Virus record (IMG/VR): IMGVR_UViG_3300011116_001118
Coordinates: 1-46,062 of that record
Strand: one strand, 5' to 3'
Length of the DNA: 46,062 nt
Source: a virus
The notes under the pieces were generated by a model. That model searched no databases. It was not told the DNA's origin and worked only from the letters and a program-made list of their open reading frames with translations. Shown here piece by piece: positions 3,437 to 28,523 of this stretch. Both the position numbers and the translations under genes were made by a program. How positions within the stretch are numbered: position 1 is the first letter of the stretch; the number at the start of each line of letters is the position of its first letter.

Positions 3437-4074
3437 GCAGCACTCCTAATAAGGGTGAGGTACATGGGGCTACGTCCCCAATAGGTACCAAAAGCTACAC
3501 TGCGTCCGGTCATCAGGGCGGCTAACTCGGGAATATGCCGCCCTGGCCTGTAACTTCGTTTCTTATCGGCAACAGAGCGGATAACTTTAGCCATTCGGGG
3601 GCGCAATCCCCATTCCTTTGCTGCGGCAGTGAGATGTACCTTGTGGCAGTCCCGAGCACTTCCATTAATAGAGATAGTTGCCGCAGGATTACGACGGGCC
3701 CAAGCGTACAGGTACTTATCCAAGGTGCCCCAAGTATCCACACCGTCAGCTTCTACGTATGCAACATCAGTAACGGTTTCCAAGTAATCTTCCAAGTTGC
3801 CAGTAACCACTTGGCAATCTATGTCCAGTCGCTTTGCTCGGCGACGCAAGGAATCTGCAGTATCTGCGTCTCTCTCAACAATTACAATATCTTCCATCTT
3901 GAATCCAAGTGCAAGCATGCGGGAGACGTGCCGCCAAAGCCCACGCCAATTGCCTACAAGAATCACAGCCTTACCCTTTGGCTTCCCATGCAGCTGTTCA
4001 GCGAGCAACATATCAAGTACTTGCTCAGACCGTAGCTTCCCCTTAGTAGTCGTGCACTTATTTACAAAGCTCAT
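3433..4074 (-). CDS. Rossmann-fold, SAM methyltransferase-like protein
   Basis: The 213-residue product starts MSFVNK at an ATG preceded by GGGGGG; an upstream start would lie in the tiny membrane gene. The central part reads like the first strands of a class I methyltransferase: KAVILVGNWRGLW, then IVIVERDADTADSLRRR with an acidic end to strand two, then VVTGNLEDYLE and AYVEADG. A clear catalytic motif such as NPPY or DPPY is absent, so it may be a degenerate or non-DNA enzyme, or another Rossmann protein. It could serve DNA or RNA modification, but that is only inferred from the fold. Confidence 0.45.
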   Translation of the reverse strand: MSFVNKCTTTKGKLRSEQVLDMLLAEQLHGKPKGKAVILVGNWRGLWRHVSRMLALGFKMEDIVIVERDADTADSLRRRAKRLDIDCQVVTGNLEDYLETVTDVAYVEADGVDTWGTLDKYLYAWARRNPAATISINGSARDCHKVHLTAAAKEWGLRPRMAKVIRSVADKKRSYRPGRHIPELAALMTGRSVAFGTYWGRSPMYLTLIRSAA

Positions 4075-7734: not shown

Positions 7735-7754
7735 CCCTATATGACTAGAGCGCT

Positions 7755-7801
7755 CACCTTCAAAGAAGGTCTTTGGGGTGCTGCGACAGGAGCCCGTCTC
7801 T
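7755..7801 (+). promoter_or_regulatory. leader element with ACCTTC hairpin and GGTGCTGCGACAGGAG
   Basis: ACCTTC-AAA-GAAGGT (7756-7770) is a perfect stem. GGTGCTGCGACAGGAG (7777-7792) follows and includes the Shine-Dalgarno for the GTG start at 7802. The same 16 bases recur before the fibre gene at 26553, where the start is also GTG-AGC-AA. Confidence 0.55.
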
Positions 7802-23689: not shown

Positions 23690-25843
23690 ATGAAAATATT
23701 TGGAAGTATAAACGAGCTGTTAGCATTGGTGTTTCGTCGTAATTCCCAGCAGATAACAGTCCGCCCCAACCAGGCCACGACCTACACTGCTGCCCGTGAC
23801 ATTCAGCTGCCTCCCGGGGATGCTGACCATGTGATGCTGTCGGCAACCTCATCCCAGGCTGTCTCTAACAAGACTATTGACTCTTCTAACTCGATTACGC
23901 TCAAGGATAGTACTGCTGAGGTAGTTGACGCAACGGATGCCACCAAAAAGATTCTCTTCAATGCCGCCGGCACTACTGGGACATCTACTACCATCGCAGG
24001 CTCTCAGTCGGCCAACCGTGTTCTTACCCTTCCCGATGCTACCGATACAGTAGCGGTACTTGCTGCTTCCCAAGCCTTGACCAACAAGACGCTTGACTCT
24101 TCTAACTCCATTACCCTGAAGGATAGCACCGCCCAGGTGGTCGATGCCACCGACGCCACTAAGCGCATCCTCTTTGACGCTGCCGGTACCACAGGCACAG
24201 CCACCACCATTCAGGGCTCACAGAGTGTGGACCGCACTTTGACGCTGCCCGATGCCACTGATACGCTGGTTGGCCGTAACACCACGGATACTCTCCTCAA
24301 CAAGAAGCTGAGTGACTCGACTACTTCAATTGTAGACTCTGGGGACATTACTAAGCGAATCCTGTTTGATGCAGGCGGGAGCACCGGTACTTCCACCACG
24401 ATTACTGGAGCCCAGACTGCTAACCGGGTACTCACTCTGCCCGACGCTACTGACACTCTGACGGCTAACTCCGCTTCTCAGACCATCACCAATAAGGTTC
24501 TTGACGGCGGAACCGCAAGCAGCACAAACCGCTTTACTCTGCCCAAAGCACCGAAAGCCACCCTTGATGGCCTTGGCCGAGTACAGGGAACGCTCCTTTA
24601 CGCTTCCGACACCAACGTGGTGTACTCGGATGATGGGAGCAACCTGAATGAGCTGGGCGCGGGGGGGATTAGCTCCACCATCACTCAGGCCTCGCACGGA
24701 TTTACCTCCTCTGACTTGGGTGCCCCCCTCTACCTCAATGGTAGTACCTATGTGAAGGCAAAAGCTGATGCCGCCAATACTGCGGAAGTTGTAGGCGTCA
24801 TTGGGGCCATCCTGTCCGTTAACCAGTTCAAGTTGGTCAGTGCCGGGACTGTCTCTGTAGATACCACGGTGAGTGGCGGAGCCCTTGTTGCCGGTACGGT
24901 GTACTTCCTTAGCTCTTCCTCGGCCGGCCAAATTACAGCGACTGAGCCAAGCGTAATTGGGCACGTGAGTATGCCTCTTGGTGTTGCCAAGGATACCTCC
25001 TCTCTTATCCTCAACATCATGCGCGGCGCTGTCATTGGCGGTTCAAACGCCAGGACAACAGTTTCCCTCACGAACAATGCCACAAGCACAGTTCAGAACG
25101 CGGCGGCCTACGATGCCGGGGAACTCACCGGCTGGGTATCGATTACGGCCACGACTCCTCTCCGGTTTTACGTAGCAGCGCAGTTTGCCAAGAATGGTGC
25201 AGCCTCTGACTGGAACCTGTCTTACCAGACAAGCGGAGACACGCCACCTACTGGGTTCTCCCTAAGCATCACCAGCGGTGGGGTTATCCAAGCAACCCTT
25301 CCCTCGATTACGGGCTTCTCAACTGCAAGCATCAACTACGCCCTCAACGCCCCTGCCGTGGGCACTTCATTTCCGCTAACAGTACAGGCAAGTGCCGTTC
25401 AAGGGAGGGTAGACGGTGCAGCCGCTAGTGCAGGATACATTGGTGAAAGCCTTAGCCAGTCACGCGCTTATGCTTCTCAAATTTCTGTATCAACTGGTGT
25501 AGACACTAACGTAACCGCAACTCCACTCACTCTTACCCCAGGGTCTTGGTTGATTAGTGGTGTTGTTCACTTAGAAACGTCTAGCGCACAAGTGACCGAT
25601 TTTAGGGCTGGTATTTCCACTACATCAGCAACCCTTCCTTCCGTCTATGGTACTCCAAGTGGCAACCAAGTAGCGTACAGGTACTTTTTAAACAACTATA
25701 CGGGTGCGTTTACAGCATCAATTTCTTCTTATGTAGTTAACGTTTCTACACCTACGACATTCTATTTGATTGGGCGGCCAACTTGGTCAACTGGCGTTAA
25801 CTCCTTCTTAGACGGTTACATCCAAGCAATCCGAATCGCATAA
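23690..25843 (+). CDS. long tail fibre protein with tandem repeats, 717 residues
   Basis: AGGAAGG precedes the ATG. The opening (MKIFGSINELLALVFRRNSQ) and LPPGDADHVML attach to an array of three tandem repeats of about 72 residues, each with SNSITLKDSTA, DATDATKRILF, TGTSTTI and LTLPDATDT (about 50-260). A linker domain with ASTNRFTLPKA leads to a beta middle region. The C-terminal 140 residues (from GYIGESLSQSRAY) are a widespread phage fibre tip with LTPGSWLISGVVHLE. The tip is coded in AT-richer DNA with different codon use, pointing to exchange by recombination at about 25440. Confidence 0.75.
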   Translation: MKIFGSINELLALVFRRNSQQITVRPNQATTYTAARDIQLPPGDADHVMLSATSSQAVSNKTIDSSNSITLKDSTAEVVDATDATKKILFNAAGTTGTSTTIAGSQSANRVLTLPDATDTVAVLAASQALTNKTLDSSNSITLKDSTAQVVDATDATKRILFDAAGTTGTATTIQGSQSVDRTLTLPDATDTLVGRNTTDTLLNKKLSDSTTSIVDSGDITKRILFDAGGSTGTSTTITGAQTANRVLTLPDATDTLTANSASQTITNKVLDGGTASSTNRFTLPKAPKATLDGLGRVQGTLLYASDTNVVYSDDGSNLNELGAGGISSTITQASHGFTSSDLGAPLYLNGSTYVKAKADAANTAEVVGVIGAILSVNQFKLVSAGTVSVDTTVSGGALVAGTVYFLSSSSAGQITATEPSVIGHVSMPLGVAKDTSSLILNIMRGAVIGGSNARTTVSLTNNATSTVQNAAAYDAGELTGWVSITATTPLRFYVAAQFAKNGAASDWNLSYQTSGDTPPTGFSLSITSGGVIQATLPSITGFSTASINYALNAPAVGTSFPLTVQASAVQGRVDGAAASAGYIGESLSQSRAYASQISVSTGVDTNVTATPLTLTPGSWLISGVVHLETSSAQVTDFRAGISTTSATLPSVYGTPSGNQVAYRYFLNNYTGAFTASISSYVVNVSTPTTFYLIGRPTWSTGVNSFLDGYIQAIRIA
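23845..24480 (+). repeat. three tandem 216-base coding repeats
   Basis: The first two copies are spaced exactly 216 bases apart (GACTCTTCTAAC at 23879 and 24095), and a third, diverged copy begins about 24275. They encode 72-residue repeats of a fibre shaft and keep the reading frame. Unequal crossing-over here would change fibre length. Confidence 0.7.
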
Positions 25844-25917
25844 CGACAAGGGTACTCGTCGTGAGGACACGCTTTAATTAAATAAGAATGGCAGCCACCC
25901 CTTGCGGGTGCTGCGAC
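25843..25917 (+). promoter_or_regulatory. structured spacer, first copy: GGGTAC hairpin plus GGGTGCTGCGAC
   Basis: Right after the fibre stop ACGAC pairs with GTCGT around a loop with GGGTAC (25843-25862), then GTGAGGAC and an AT-rich tract, then GCAGCCACCC-CTTGC-GGGTGCTGC (bulged, 25891-25914) followed by GAC. The second copy is at 26446-26552. The two copies flank the 156-residue tip gene. The first hairpin may be a terminator or processing site and the second the translation-control element. Confidence 0.5.
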
Positions 25918-25931
25918 TGAAAAGGAGCACC

Positions 25932-25973
25932 ATGACACCAGCTCCGCAGACAAAGAATAACAGAGAGGAATAG
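25932..25973 (+). CDS. 13-residue leader peptide
   Basis: ATG follows AAAAGGAG at ideal spacing and encodes MTPAPQTKNNREE. Its stop TAG lies two bases before the ATG of the 156-residue gene, and the last codons contain that gene's Shine-Dalgarno (GAGAGGAA). This is a classic coupled leader: translation of the short frame would open the next start. The peptide itself probably has no separate function. Confidence 0.5.
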   Translation: MTPAPQTKNNREE

Positions 25974-25975
25974 CA

Positions 25976-26446
25976 ATGACGGCTAAAGCATTACAGGATT
26001 CTGGATTCCCTACTGCGCTGACTGACTCACAGGCGACGGCGTTGGGGTTGAAAGTTTATACAAATGGTGTTGCGTATAATGGCGGTAATACACCCGCAAC
26101 GACTGGAACAAATTGGACTACGGCTCGCGGTAAGTACATCCCTTATCAGATGCAAGATGGTACGTGGCGATTAAGACTAAATATTACTGGCGTATATAGT
26201 GGGGCAAGTTCAAGCAACGTGGCAAATCCACTTACAATATCAGGAATAACTACAATAGTTGAAATCCAAGCATTGGCTGTAAATGACCAAGGTTGCCAGG
26301 CGCGAGCTGCGGCATGTTCAGCGTCAGTACTTGCCAGCAGTGGAACTATCCAACTTTTGTTTGGGGCGTCGACAAACTACAACACATTTCAGTTTATTTA
26401 TAGTGGTGACATTGAGCTAGCATCCAAACCCACCTGGGCCTACTGA
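25976..26446 (+). CDS. stand-alone fibre tip domain, 156 residues
   Basis: The whole protein matches, in order, the last 130 or so residues of the next fibre. Shared parts are YNGGNTPAT/YNGGNAPTI, IPYQMQDGTWRLRLN/IPYQMADGTWRCKFN and YSGDIELASKPTWAY/FSGDVKLASKPTWAY. It has no shaft of its own. It may be an extra tip that assembles on a fibre, a chaperone-like tip copy, or the remnant of a replaced fibre end. It is bordered by two copies of a structured spacer, which would help such exchange. Confidence 0.6.
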   Translation: MTAKALQDSGFPTALTDSQATALGLKVYTNGVAYNGGNTPATTGTNWTTARGKYIPYQMQDGTWRLRLNITGVYSGASSSNVANPLTISGITTIVEIQALAVNDQGCQARAAACSASVLASSGTIQLLFGASTNYNTFQFIYSGDIELASKPTWAY

Positions 26447-26552
26447 CAACACGGGTACGTATTGTGAGGACTTTCTTTTAATTCAATTAACTCAATAGCG
26501 CCCACCGACGAGGCATTGTGCCGAGAAGGTGCTGCGACAGGAGTAACTCTTT
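26446..26552 (+). promoter_or_regulatory. structured spacer, second copy: GGGTAC hairpin plus GGTGCTGCGACAGGAG
   Basis: ACAA pairs with TTGT around ACGGGTACG (26446-26465), followed by GTGAGGAC and an AT-rich tract, then CACC...GGTGCTGCGACAGGAG (26502-26543 region) just before the GTG start. The layout equals the copy at 25843, with changed stem bases that still pair. The 16-base end is the same as at 7777-7792. Confidence 0.55.
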
Positions 26553-28523
26553 GTGAGCAATTCAGCATTTACACCTACAAACCTGGGCACCGGTACTTCT
26601 TCTGGTAGTGGTTCTTCTGGTATCAACTACCTCTCCTCTCACTTTGCCGCTGATTCCCTTGGCAGTGTGACCCTCAACGTCGGAGACACCCTGGCGTCCT
26701 CGACGCGGAGCAACCCAACGCAGTGGGGAACCAGCGCCGCTTCTGCCATCATTGCCCAGAGCAGCGACTCCTCGCTCCGGGGTACCACCAACTACCTCAT
26801 CAGCTTCACCACCAACGGCCAATTTGTCGAGTCCCCGCTCTTCACGCTAGATGGCTCTGACTTGGGCAAAGCCCTCCAGGTTGCTTTTGCCAACAGCGGC
26901 GTGAGTACTAGCGACGACGTGCAAGCCTACATGGTCCGCTACAACTCAAGCAATGTGCTTCAGGAGAAAATCCCGCTTGCAGGGACTGCCAGTGCCACGG
27001 GCCCCTTCTCTGCACGTCTTGGGACGGGCGTGGCCCAATTCAACTCTTTCTTTGTCAGCGGAAGTACTGCTTCTGACAAATACGCCCTGCGCCTTGTGAG
27101 GAATGCCAACACTACGGCATTGCGCCTGGACTCTTTCAGCATTGGCCCTCAGAGTATTGGGGTAGGTTTTGGCGGTACTGACTGGATTAGTTATACGCCA
27201 ACTTATACTGGCATTTCTGCAAGTGCCTCTTCCGTGCGGTACCGCCGGGTCGGAGACTCTATTGAAGTAGCAGGAGAAGTTGATATATCCGCATCGTCCG
27301 CAGCTACGGTATCAATTTCCCTTCCTACAGGATTGACGTTAGACACAACAAAACTTGCTGGAAACTTGGCAAACTTTTTTGGTACGGCATGGCGTGGCGG
27401 TGGGGCCAATGTTAATATCCCGGTCGCGGCATACGGCCCTTGGGCAGTTGTTGATAACCGCACAAATTCTACATCGGCAGTATATATTGCCTCCCAGACA
27501 AATGCTATATTCAATTTAGTAAATGGTAACACTATTTTAAGTAGCAGTGAATTTCTTGCCTTTAGATTTACTGCCCCAATTTCTACCTGGGCCTCTGGTA
27601 TTCAGGTTGCCGACAGGGCGGTGGAGGAATATGCAAGTAACTCGAACACAAGCGATGCAGATACAACTGGTTCGGGTTATGCCTACGGACCTGCCGGAAG
27701 TCAGTTTGCAAGCTTCACAGCTGAACATTACAAAGAAGTTCAGTTCCAGCAGCCTATTCAGTCTACCGACCAGATAACACTTCAGTTCTCGGCAGACTCT
27801 GGCACAACATGGGTTAATGTAGGTCAGGGAAACCTCATCTCGTCATACGACACACAGAACTCAGTTGTGTATGGGATGACGTGGGTTCAATTGTCATCCA
27901 CGAAAATCCTCGTCTATTTCGGCCAATACCGCAGAAATTTCAGCACAACCTACGGCGGTGCGGGTACGGCGTGGTCTGGCATTGCAACATCGAGCACCTA
28001 CAAATGGCGCGTTCGTAAAGTAAGTGGCGGTGCCACCGTAGGCTATCCCATCGCCAATAGTAACCAGGTTGCAATCAACGCCGCTTCTGAGTATAGCGCA
28101 AATACGCGACTGGGGCAGATGGTTTATTCGCATGGCGGGTCATACAATGGCGGGAATGCGCCGACAATTACTCTTTTTTCTGGTGGGGGGACATTAAGCC
28201 AAGTAGCACAAGCGGATTTTATCCCATACCAGATGGCTGATGGGACTTGGAGATGCAAATTTAATGTTGTTCCAATTTTATCAAGCACCGCAAGGACTGA
28301 GGCTATTATCTCTGTTGCTGGTCTGACATTTTATGACAATTCTTCCGGTGGTGGGGATGGACAGGCGGTTGGAGGCGGTAGCGCCTACCAAACCGCCGCG
28401 TATTTTACATATGCCGTGAATAACACGGGTAGGATACGTGTAGCGCACGCCAGCATAGCAACGGCTGAATACTGGTTTAGTGGCGACGTAAAACTAGCTT
28501 CCAAACCCACATGGGCCTACTAG
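26553..28523 (+). CDS. tail fibre protein, 656 residues
   Basis: It starts GTG after AGGAG. The first 200 residues have common fibre motifs (SSGINYLSSHFAADSLG, then TNYLISFTTNGQFVESPLF). DWISYTPTYTGISASASSVRY begins the next domain, and the sequence from about 27180 is AT-richer with other codon use. A middle domain with YKEVQFQQPIQSTDQITLQF and YKWRVRKVSGG follows. The last 130 residues are the tip domain also found alone in the preceding gene. It probably binds the host surface. Domain boundaries match the composition changes, as expected for a mosaic fibre. Confidence 0.72.
   Translation: MSNSAFTPTNLGTGTSSGSGSSGINYLSSHFAADSLGSVTLNVGDTLASSTRSNPTQWGTSAASAIIAQSSDSSLRGTTNYLISFTTNGQFVESPLFTLDGSDLGKALQVAFANSGVSTSDDVQAYMVRYNSSNVLQEKIPLAGTASATGPFSARLGTGVAQFNSFFVSGSTASDKYALRLVRNANTTALRLDSFSIGPQSIGVGFGGTDWISYTPTYTGISASASSVRYRRVGDSIEVAGEVDISASSAATVSISLPTGLTLDTTKLAGNLANFFGTAWRGGGANVNIPVAAYGPWAVVDNRTNSTSAVYIASQTNAIFNLVNGNTILSSSEFLAFRFTAPISTWASGIQVADRAVEEYASNSNTSDADTTGSGYAYGPAGSQFASFTAEHYKEVQFQQPIQSTDQITLQFSADSGTTWVNVGQGNLISSYDTQNSVVYGMTWVQLSSTKILVYFGQYRRNFSTTYGGAGTAWSGIATSSTYKWRVRKVSGGATVGYPIANSNQVAINAASEYSANTRLGQMVYSHGGSYNGGNAPTITLFSGGGTLSQVAQADFIPYQMADGTWRCKFNVVPILSSTARTEAIISVAGLTFYDNSSGGGDGQAVGGGSAYQTAAYFTYAVNNTGRIRVAHASIATAEYWFSGDVKLASKPTWAY

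Follow-up and report, generated by a model that had tools for sequence, protein, structure and literature searches.

Why would a virus keep a short gene resembling the tip of a tail fibre between two fibre genes, flanked on both sides by spacers that resemble each other? The question arises in the virus record IMGVR_UViG_3300011116_001118, whose whole public sequence of 46,062 bases was analysed here (the window). In it, a minor tail protein gene is followed by three rightward genes: fibre 1 (P0001), a gene of 156 amino acids (P0002, the lone tip gene) and fibre 2 (P0003). An earlier note, made from the sequence alone, had proposed that the 156-residue gene equals the tip of the following fibre and forms, with its spacers, a unit that can be duplicated or swapped. 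Our data suggest that the lone gene is probably a stand-alone receptor-binding head with an exchangeable C-terminal domain, and that the spacers serve mainly as expression elements. The features concerned are as follows.

23690..25843, plus strand: fibre 1 (P0001, 717 amino acids), N-terminus MKIFGSI.EL, ends IQAIRIA
about 24680-25414, plus strand: fibre 1 body, common to 58 viral loci
about 25415-25840, plus strand: fibre 1 tip, 'IRIA' type
25844-25975, plus strand: spacer 1, between fibre 1 and the lone tip gene
25976..26446, plus strand: lone tip gene (P0002, 156 amino acids), N-terminus MTAKALQDSG, 'PTWAY' receptor-binding-head-like domain, ends KPTWAY
26447-26552, plus strand: spacer 2, between the lone tip gene and fibre 2
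26553..28523, plus strand: fibre 2 (P0003, 656 amino acids), N-terminus VSNSAFTPT, GTG start, second body type, ends KPTWAY
about 28083-28520, plus strand: fibre 2 tip, 'PTWAY' type

Identity of the lone tip gene

Residues 18-156 of P0002 match the C-terminal tip of P0003 (the last 139 residues of fibre 2) with 38% identity (E 5e-19), and both proteins end in ...SGD(I/V)(E/K)LASKPTWAY. By sequence, P0002 and the fibre-2 tip are diverged members of one domain family. Homology of the two tips and their divergence, both part of the earlier proposal, are thus borne out, but their equality is not. In the tip tree, P0002 pairs with the tip of locus L057 (98/82) and the P0003 tip groups with those of L067 and L068 (93/93), and an arrangement forcing P0002 and the P0003 tip together as sisters was rejected (AU test, p=0.033). 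The idea that P0002 arose as a local duplicate of the P0003 C-terminal tip and has since diverged draws on their identity and their adjacency on the genome; it conflicts with these groupings and with the start of P0002, which is that of a separate family of lone tips, and we consider it highly improbable.

The PTWAY domain forms the end, or sometimes a middle part, of proteins encoded in about 30 viral loci and in one Bdellovibrio-assigned contig; relatives were confirmed in 28 viral loci by tblastn. P0002 matches the PTWAY profile over the whole domain, including the ...KPTWAY end, with an E of 3e-43, a value to which the presence of P0002 itself in the profile contributes. In L080-L085, among them the Bdellovibrio-assigned contig L085, the domain also lies inside longer proteins.

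The N-terminus of P0002 has a different affiliation. Against a profile built from 16 lone tips of relatives it scored 18.3, where the best unrelated sequence among 5264 open frames reached 6.3. Its start, MTAKALQDSG, resembles those of stand-alone tips in relatives (MTQKALLQSAGDG, MTAKAQLQSSGDG and others) and conforms (as MTAKA-LQ-SG) to the N-terminal motif of that family, MTxKxxLQSxGDG. In L150, L156, L167 and L169 a lone-tip gene stands at this locus as well, separating the fibre from the genes downstream. All other members of the family that we saw carry a C-terminal domain of the IRIA type (a common feature, though perhaps not a defining one), whereas P0002 carries one of the PTWAY type. 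Since P0002 begins as a lone tip and bears PTWAY where its relatives bear IRIA, its head appears to have been exchanged, and the simplest reading is that P0002 is a stand-alone tip gene with an exchanged head.

A different history would make P0002 the former tip of fibre 1, severed when an IRIA tip with a stop codon and a spacer copy was inserted and then kept as a separate gene. Such a history fits the position of the gene directly behind fibre 1, the relatedness of the spacers after both stops, and the existence of fibre-1 bodies with PTWAY tips (L058, L059, L064, L116 and L131). We nonetheless think it quite unlikely: the N-terminus matches the lone-tip family, members of which are present in phages with intact fibre-1 tips, and P0002 does not group with the tips of body-1 fibres.

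The structure of P0002 is predicted, with good confidence, to be a beta-rich head domain (mean pLDDT 87). Its best structural matches were the Pa223 tail needle (Z 9.3) and the receptor-binding protein of Listeria phage PSA (8.7), followed by the TP901-1 receptor-binding protein (Z 7.3) and reovirus sigma1 (7.3); the alignments cover about 100-110 residues, and Foldseek E-values were only 0.05-0.1. The closest predicted viral structure is a small protein of 153 amino acids with 39% identity and a TM score of 0.76. The Z-scores are only suggestive of a fold akin to phage and virus attachment heads. P0002 probably acts as a receptor-binding head, which may sit on the distal tips of the virion's fibres or be fixed alongside them.

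T4 gp38 is an assembly chaperone for gp37, encoded by a small gene beside the fibre gene, and the lone gene, also small and adjoining a fibre, could by analogy encode a chaperone and not an adhesin. Yet P0002 is homologous to the fibres' own terminal domains, down to the same end residues, and the lone tips of relatives vary like adhesins, so a chaperone role appears very unlikely.

Tip exchange among relatives

Whether tips move was assessed in related loci and contigs, labelled by L numbers. The 58 loci of relatives were found by a search with the fibre-1 body; syntenic relatives in the window's virus family were found by alignment of a large structural protein (the adaptor protein alone, used as a query, gave no syntenic relatives). 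The identities and borders reported below rest on a modest set of contigs, fragments among them.

The earlier note had advised a search of relatives for tips that are exchanged or vary in number, and held that a constant gene order free of exchange would tell against its proposal. Relatives proved to vary in both respects. Among the 58 loci the fibre-1 body ends in IRIA, PTWAY or other tips, and body 2 does likewise. The window shares the combination of body 1 with IRIA and body 2 with PTWAY with L062, L071 and L072; the reverse assignment, together with a lone IRIA tip, occurs in L058/L104 and L131. Segments have been cleanly replaced between phages that are 90-98% identical. L104 and L074 are 98.7% identical over the stretch that ends about 200 nucleotides (nt) inside the fibre gene; their bodies then differ, their tips are 85% identical, and beyond these identity returns to 92-97%. 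L128 and L133 are 98-100% identical upstream and remain so as far as the opening codons of the lone tip; the middle of that gene is about 50% identical, and identity is about 90% from its last codons on. In L120 and L135, both the fibre-1 tips and the lone tips are unalignable, while the spacer between these replaced tips (unrelated to those of the window) is 95% identical over 103 nt, including the next gene start. Mean pairwise DNA identity across 13 lone tips was 0.76 over the opening 78 nt and 0.69 over the final 24 nt; between them it was 0.53, roughly the level that alignments of this kind yield for unrelated DNA.

Closer to the window, gene content itself differs. In the nearest relative, L147, whose conserved genes encode proteins 56-69% identical to those of the window, a single fibre of 911 amino acids (body 2, IRIA tip) takes the place of the window's three genes. 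L160 and L169, from the window's own virus family, are 90-96% identical to each other in DNA, yet L160 has a single fibre (body 2, PTWAY) whereas L169 has a body-1 fibre with an IRIA tip, two further genes and a lone tip; the replaced block opens about 41 nt inside the fibre gene and closes just past the stop of the last tip. These layouts indicate that gene number, gene order and tip type vary within the window's virus family. That the tip is an exchangeable unit in relatives is strongly supported by such sequence comparisons, and the visible borders lie mostly in conserved coding stretches and at stop codons, once in a spacer.

We propose that the C-terminal domain of lone tips is replaced by recombination between phages, the borders falling at the conserved gene start, over the final codons and the stop, and in some cases within the spacer. 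The recombination is probably homologous or homeologous, taking place at such conserved stretches when phages co-infect. Other routes were considered. Reverse transcriptase (PF00078), and with it a diversity-generating retroelement, was not found in the record, nor were serine (PF00239) or tyrosine (PF00589) recombinases, though the record may not be complete; neither retroelement nor inversion models are therefore supported. The three fibre and tip genes all lie on the same strand, unlike an invertible cassette of the Mu/P1 type. Homing endonucleases of the GIY-YIG and HNH types were sought in this record and not found.

GIY-YIG endonucleases do stand beside tips in relatives. In L076 (3158-3355; also in L164) the open reading frame (ORF) of one starts within the final codons of a fibre ending in PTWA, and a second, lone PTWA tip comes next, which places the endonuclease exactly between two tips. 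Others lie in L075 (6464-7111), directly behind a tandem-tip gene, and in L122 (8665-9522), near a fibre and with NUMOD3. Such enzymes beside tips in three relatives may drive some of the exchanges there.

Structure of the two spacers

Spacers 1 and 2 are related well beyond chance: their best local alignment scores 18, whereas none of 2000 dinucleotide shuffles exceeded 15, and their first 45 nt alone score 17 against a shuffle maximum of 13. Both have the same order of parts, namely a post-stop hairpin, GTGAGGAC, an AT tract, a leader hairpin and a Shine-Dalgarno sequence.

25843..25862, plus strand: post-stop hairpin of spacer 1, ACGACAAG-GGTA-CTCGTCGT
25861..25868, plus strand: GTGAGGAC of spacer 1, then an AT-rich tract at about 25873-25889
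25888..25925, plus strand: leader hairpin of spacer 1, GGCAGCCACC...GGTGCTGCGAC, then AAAAGGAG
25932..25973, plus strand: mini-ORF of 13 codons (MTPAPQTKNNREE) behind the Shine-Dalgarno sequence of the spacer-1 leader, ending 2 nt before the lone-tip start
26446..26465, plus strand: post-stop hairpin of spacer 2, ACAACACG-GGTA-CGTATTGT
26464..26471, plus strand: GTGAGGAC of spacer 2, then an AT-rich tract at about 26472-26496
26497..26543, plus strand: leader hairpin of spacer 2, AGCGCCCACC...GGTGCTGCGACAGGAG, 9 nt before the fibre-2 GTG start

Each post-stop hairpin opens on the final base of a stop codon. Between the copies, compensatory double changes (G-C to A-T and A-T to C-G) distinguish two of the eight pairs, and each copy contains one A.C mismatch. 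The kept pairing hints that the structure is maintained; with two sequences, it is a hint and not proof. Stability z-scores were -2.2 and -1.4 for the post-stop hairpins and -2.0 and -2.5 for the leaders. Two other accounts of the hairpins were discarded. As intrinsic terminators, the post-stop hairpins have no T run behind them and are absent from the terminator scan. An in-frame TGA after six codons in both spacers suggested relics of coding sequence, but the differences between the copies preserve pairing and not residues, which argues that the hairpins are not coding relics.

The mini-ORF in spacer 1 may provide translational coupling to the lone tip, or may be the relic of an earlier gene start; both are possible. 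Comparable mini-ORFs precede lone tips in L131 and L120. A further relic start (MTTVSGSRKANTVEQC, MTTVS..., 16 codons) lies in a spacer of L139 (3817-3867) behind its own structured leader, and its first 15 nt are nearly the same as those of the intact downstream gene at 3965 (MTTVSTLGTYGD); this is likely a scar of insertion or exchange. Long, strongly folded spacers also follow fibre 1 in L141 (3500-3700), L140 (7190-7400) and L139 (3730-3975), where a related hairpin (TCTATACTC...AGTAT.GG) sits right before the Shine-Dalgarno sequence. Its sequence is unlike that of the window's leaders, but its placement is alike.

Could the spacers themselves be the borders at which a cassette of spacer and tip is duplicated or swapped, by way of the hairpin, GTGAGGAC and the leader? 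Related spacers flank the lone tip exactly, the conserved spacer between the two replaced tips of L120 and L135 makes a border role possible in principle, and the relic start of L139 stands upstream of a second leader and an intact gene, as if leader and gene had been inserted together. However, no exact run common to the two spacers exceeds 11 nt, and within one genome homologous exchange is not efficient over runs so short. No relative carries the window's spacer, the leader is present far from fibres too, and borders in relatives fall mostly within coding ends or at stop codons. Recombination driven by the spacers at the window is unproven, and we judge it unlikely. The earlier picture of a swappable unit survives in the exchange seen in relatives, but not as a duplicate of the fibre end nor as recombination of these particular spacers.

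Searches beyond the window for its spacers returned little: no counterpart was found in relatives, and a covariance model of the leader gave nothing convincing in 34 related loci. No Rfam family was found in the window at gathering thresholds, and none in the region at E<=1. In viral contigs, the exact pattern GGGTACNNNNNGTGAGGAC occurred in 50 stretches, judged by eye from their flanks to be without hairpin or leader, and the pattern CACC-N-GGTGCTGCGACAGGAG in three, whose context gave no sign of a leader.

Reuse of the leader hairpin

The leader has the architecture CACC-loop-GGTGCTGCGAC-Shine-Dalgarno, and it is not confined to the tips. A third copy, far from any fibre gene, precedes the first gene of the rightward block.

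7749..7792, plus strand: third leader copy; the gene behind it starts GTGAGCAA, like fibre 2

This copy shares GGTGCTGCGACAGGAG exactly and has a covariance-model E of 6e-12, high by construction because the copy was in the model. Six copies of the core TGCTGCGAC lie in the genome, against about 0.35 expected by simple base count, and two of them precede leftward genes. The third leader and the six cores indicate that the leader is a more general element of the virus and not specific to tips. The two spacers do stand as relatives of each other, as the earlier note had it, but its leader cannot be regarded as proper to the cassette; the 5' half, post-stop hairpin and GTGAGGAC, is the only part unique to the two spacers in the genome.

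Related arrangements occur on the minus strand. Two leftward genes of the window (5661 and 6420) have a common leader of the form TGCTGCGAC-[hairpin with TGTAAAC]-TGTGAG-AGGAG, a second leader variant, and GGTGCTGCC hairpins (CACC...GGTG) lie 5' of two others (4967 and 6749), like the rightward leaders.

Most likely, the spacers serve expression, each tip gene having its own structured leader and Shine-Dalgarno sequence. With a leader hairpin before the Shine-Dalgarno sequence and a post-stop hairpin behind the preceding gene, an exchanged tip gene would still be translated on its own. A bolder version holds that post-stop hairpin, GTGAGGAC, AT tract and leader make up one intergenic cassette, complete in itself, that accompanies tip genes as they move, the lone gene being a dedicated plug-in slot across the phage family. 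If that were true, an acquired adhesin module would bring its own 3' end and translation leader and be expressed at once; we regard this version as rather improbable.

Assessment of the proposed model

Several points weigh against a stand-alone, exchangeable receptor-binding head served by expression spacers. Structural Z-scores of 7-9 are near the level that unrelated beta folds can reach, and the lone gene could instead encode a chaperone or a non-structural protein. Compared with shuffles of their composition, the hairpins show only a moderate gain in stability, and we infer the role of the spacers in expression from their layout. Exchange was observed in relatives, and for the window's own lineage we infer it. 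Even so, our data favour P0002 as a stand-alone receptor-binding head whose C-terminal domain was probably acquired by exchange.

Fibre-end exchange decides which hosts a phage infects. This locus, from an uncultured virus group, presents a lone tip gene whose start is constant and whose head can be exchanged, and two fibre bodies that draw on one pool of heads. Comparisons of nearly identical phages place the exchange borders within tens of bases, so where fibre tips swap can be tested by counting borders over many contigs.

Genome setting

PHROGs matches in the window include a large terminase, a portal, a head protein and tail proteins, and Pfam identifies an SU10-type adaptor. A Clp-like protease resembling head maturation protease profiles lies at 617-1339 on the minus strand, in the leftward block and apart from the head genes. 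Against the INPHARED phages, window bases 1-25000 gave no megablast match, P0002 gave no tblastn match, and P0003 gave one partial tblastn match.

Comparison with known systems

Modular receptor-binding tips and stand-alone hypervariable adhesins are well established in T-even phages. The title of Tetart et al. 1998, as listed in PMC6466182, describes recombination at conserved motifs that swaps specificity in these phages, and the hypervariable regions of gp38, a poly-glycine II sandwich, lie between glycine-rich motifs (PMC12892980). The T-even gp37/gp38 pair with its T2-type adhesin is the closest precedent for our locus, as both have a small, separate tip gene beside a fibre, variable between conserved stretches. 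They are set apart by their fold description, a compact beta head being predicted here in place of the poly-glycine II sandwich; moreover, exchange of tip type here extends to two different fibre bodies, and structured leaders precede the genes.

A listing in PMC6466182 likewise credits Haggard-Ljungquist et al. 1992 with horizontal transfer of tail fibre modules among the unrelated phages P2, lambda and T4. The mosaic fibres of these phages resemble those described here in their conserved N-terminal and body parts and exchanged C-terminal tips. The present locus differs in belonging to another virus group (with its portal and SU10-type adaptor) and in having stand-alone tip genes.

For the leader, the nearest parallel is found in the SAS/ESAS elements of cluster K mycobacteriophages, with a 13-bp GGGATAGGAGCCC and 17-bp inverted repeats (PMC3203893). 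SAS place an AGGAG Shine-Dalgarno sequence directly before start codons, and about half have an upstream inverted repeat (PMC3203893). The window's leader is similar in layout only, as a repeated sequence with a Shine-Dalgarno sequence before starts; it has GGTGCTGCGACAGGAG in place of GGGATAGGAGCCC, three full copies, and stems of 7-9 pairs as against 17 bp, and we do not assign it to that family.

The receptor-binding heads of TP901-1, Listeria phage PSA and reovirus sigma1, finally, are compact, beta-rich terminal heads similar in size to the predicted P0002; identity is 4-13%, with no notable sequence similarity, and the Z of 7-9 is only suggestive of a common fold.

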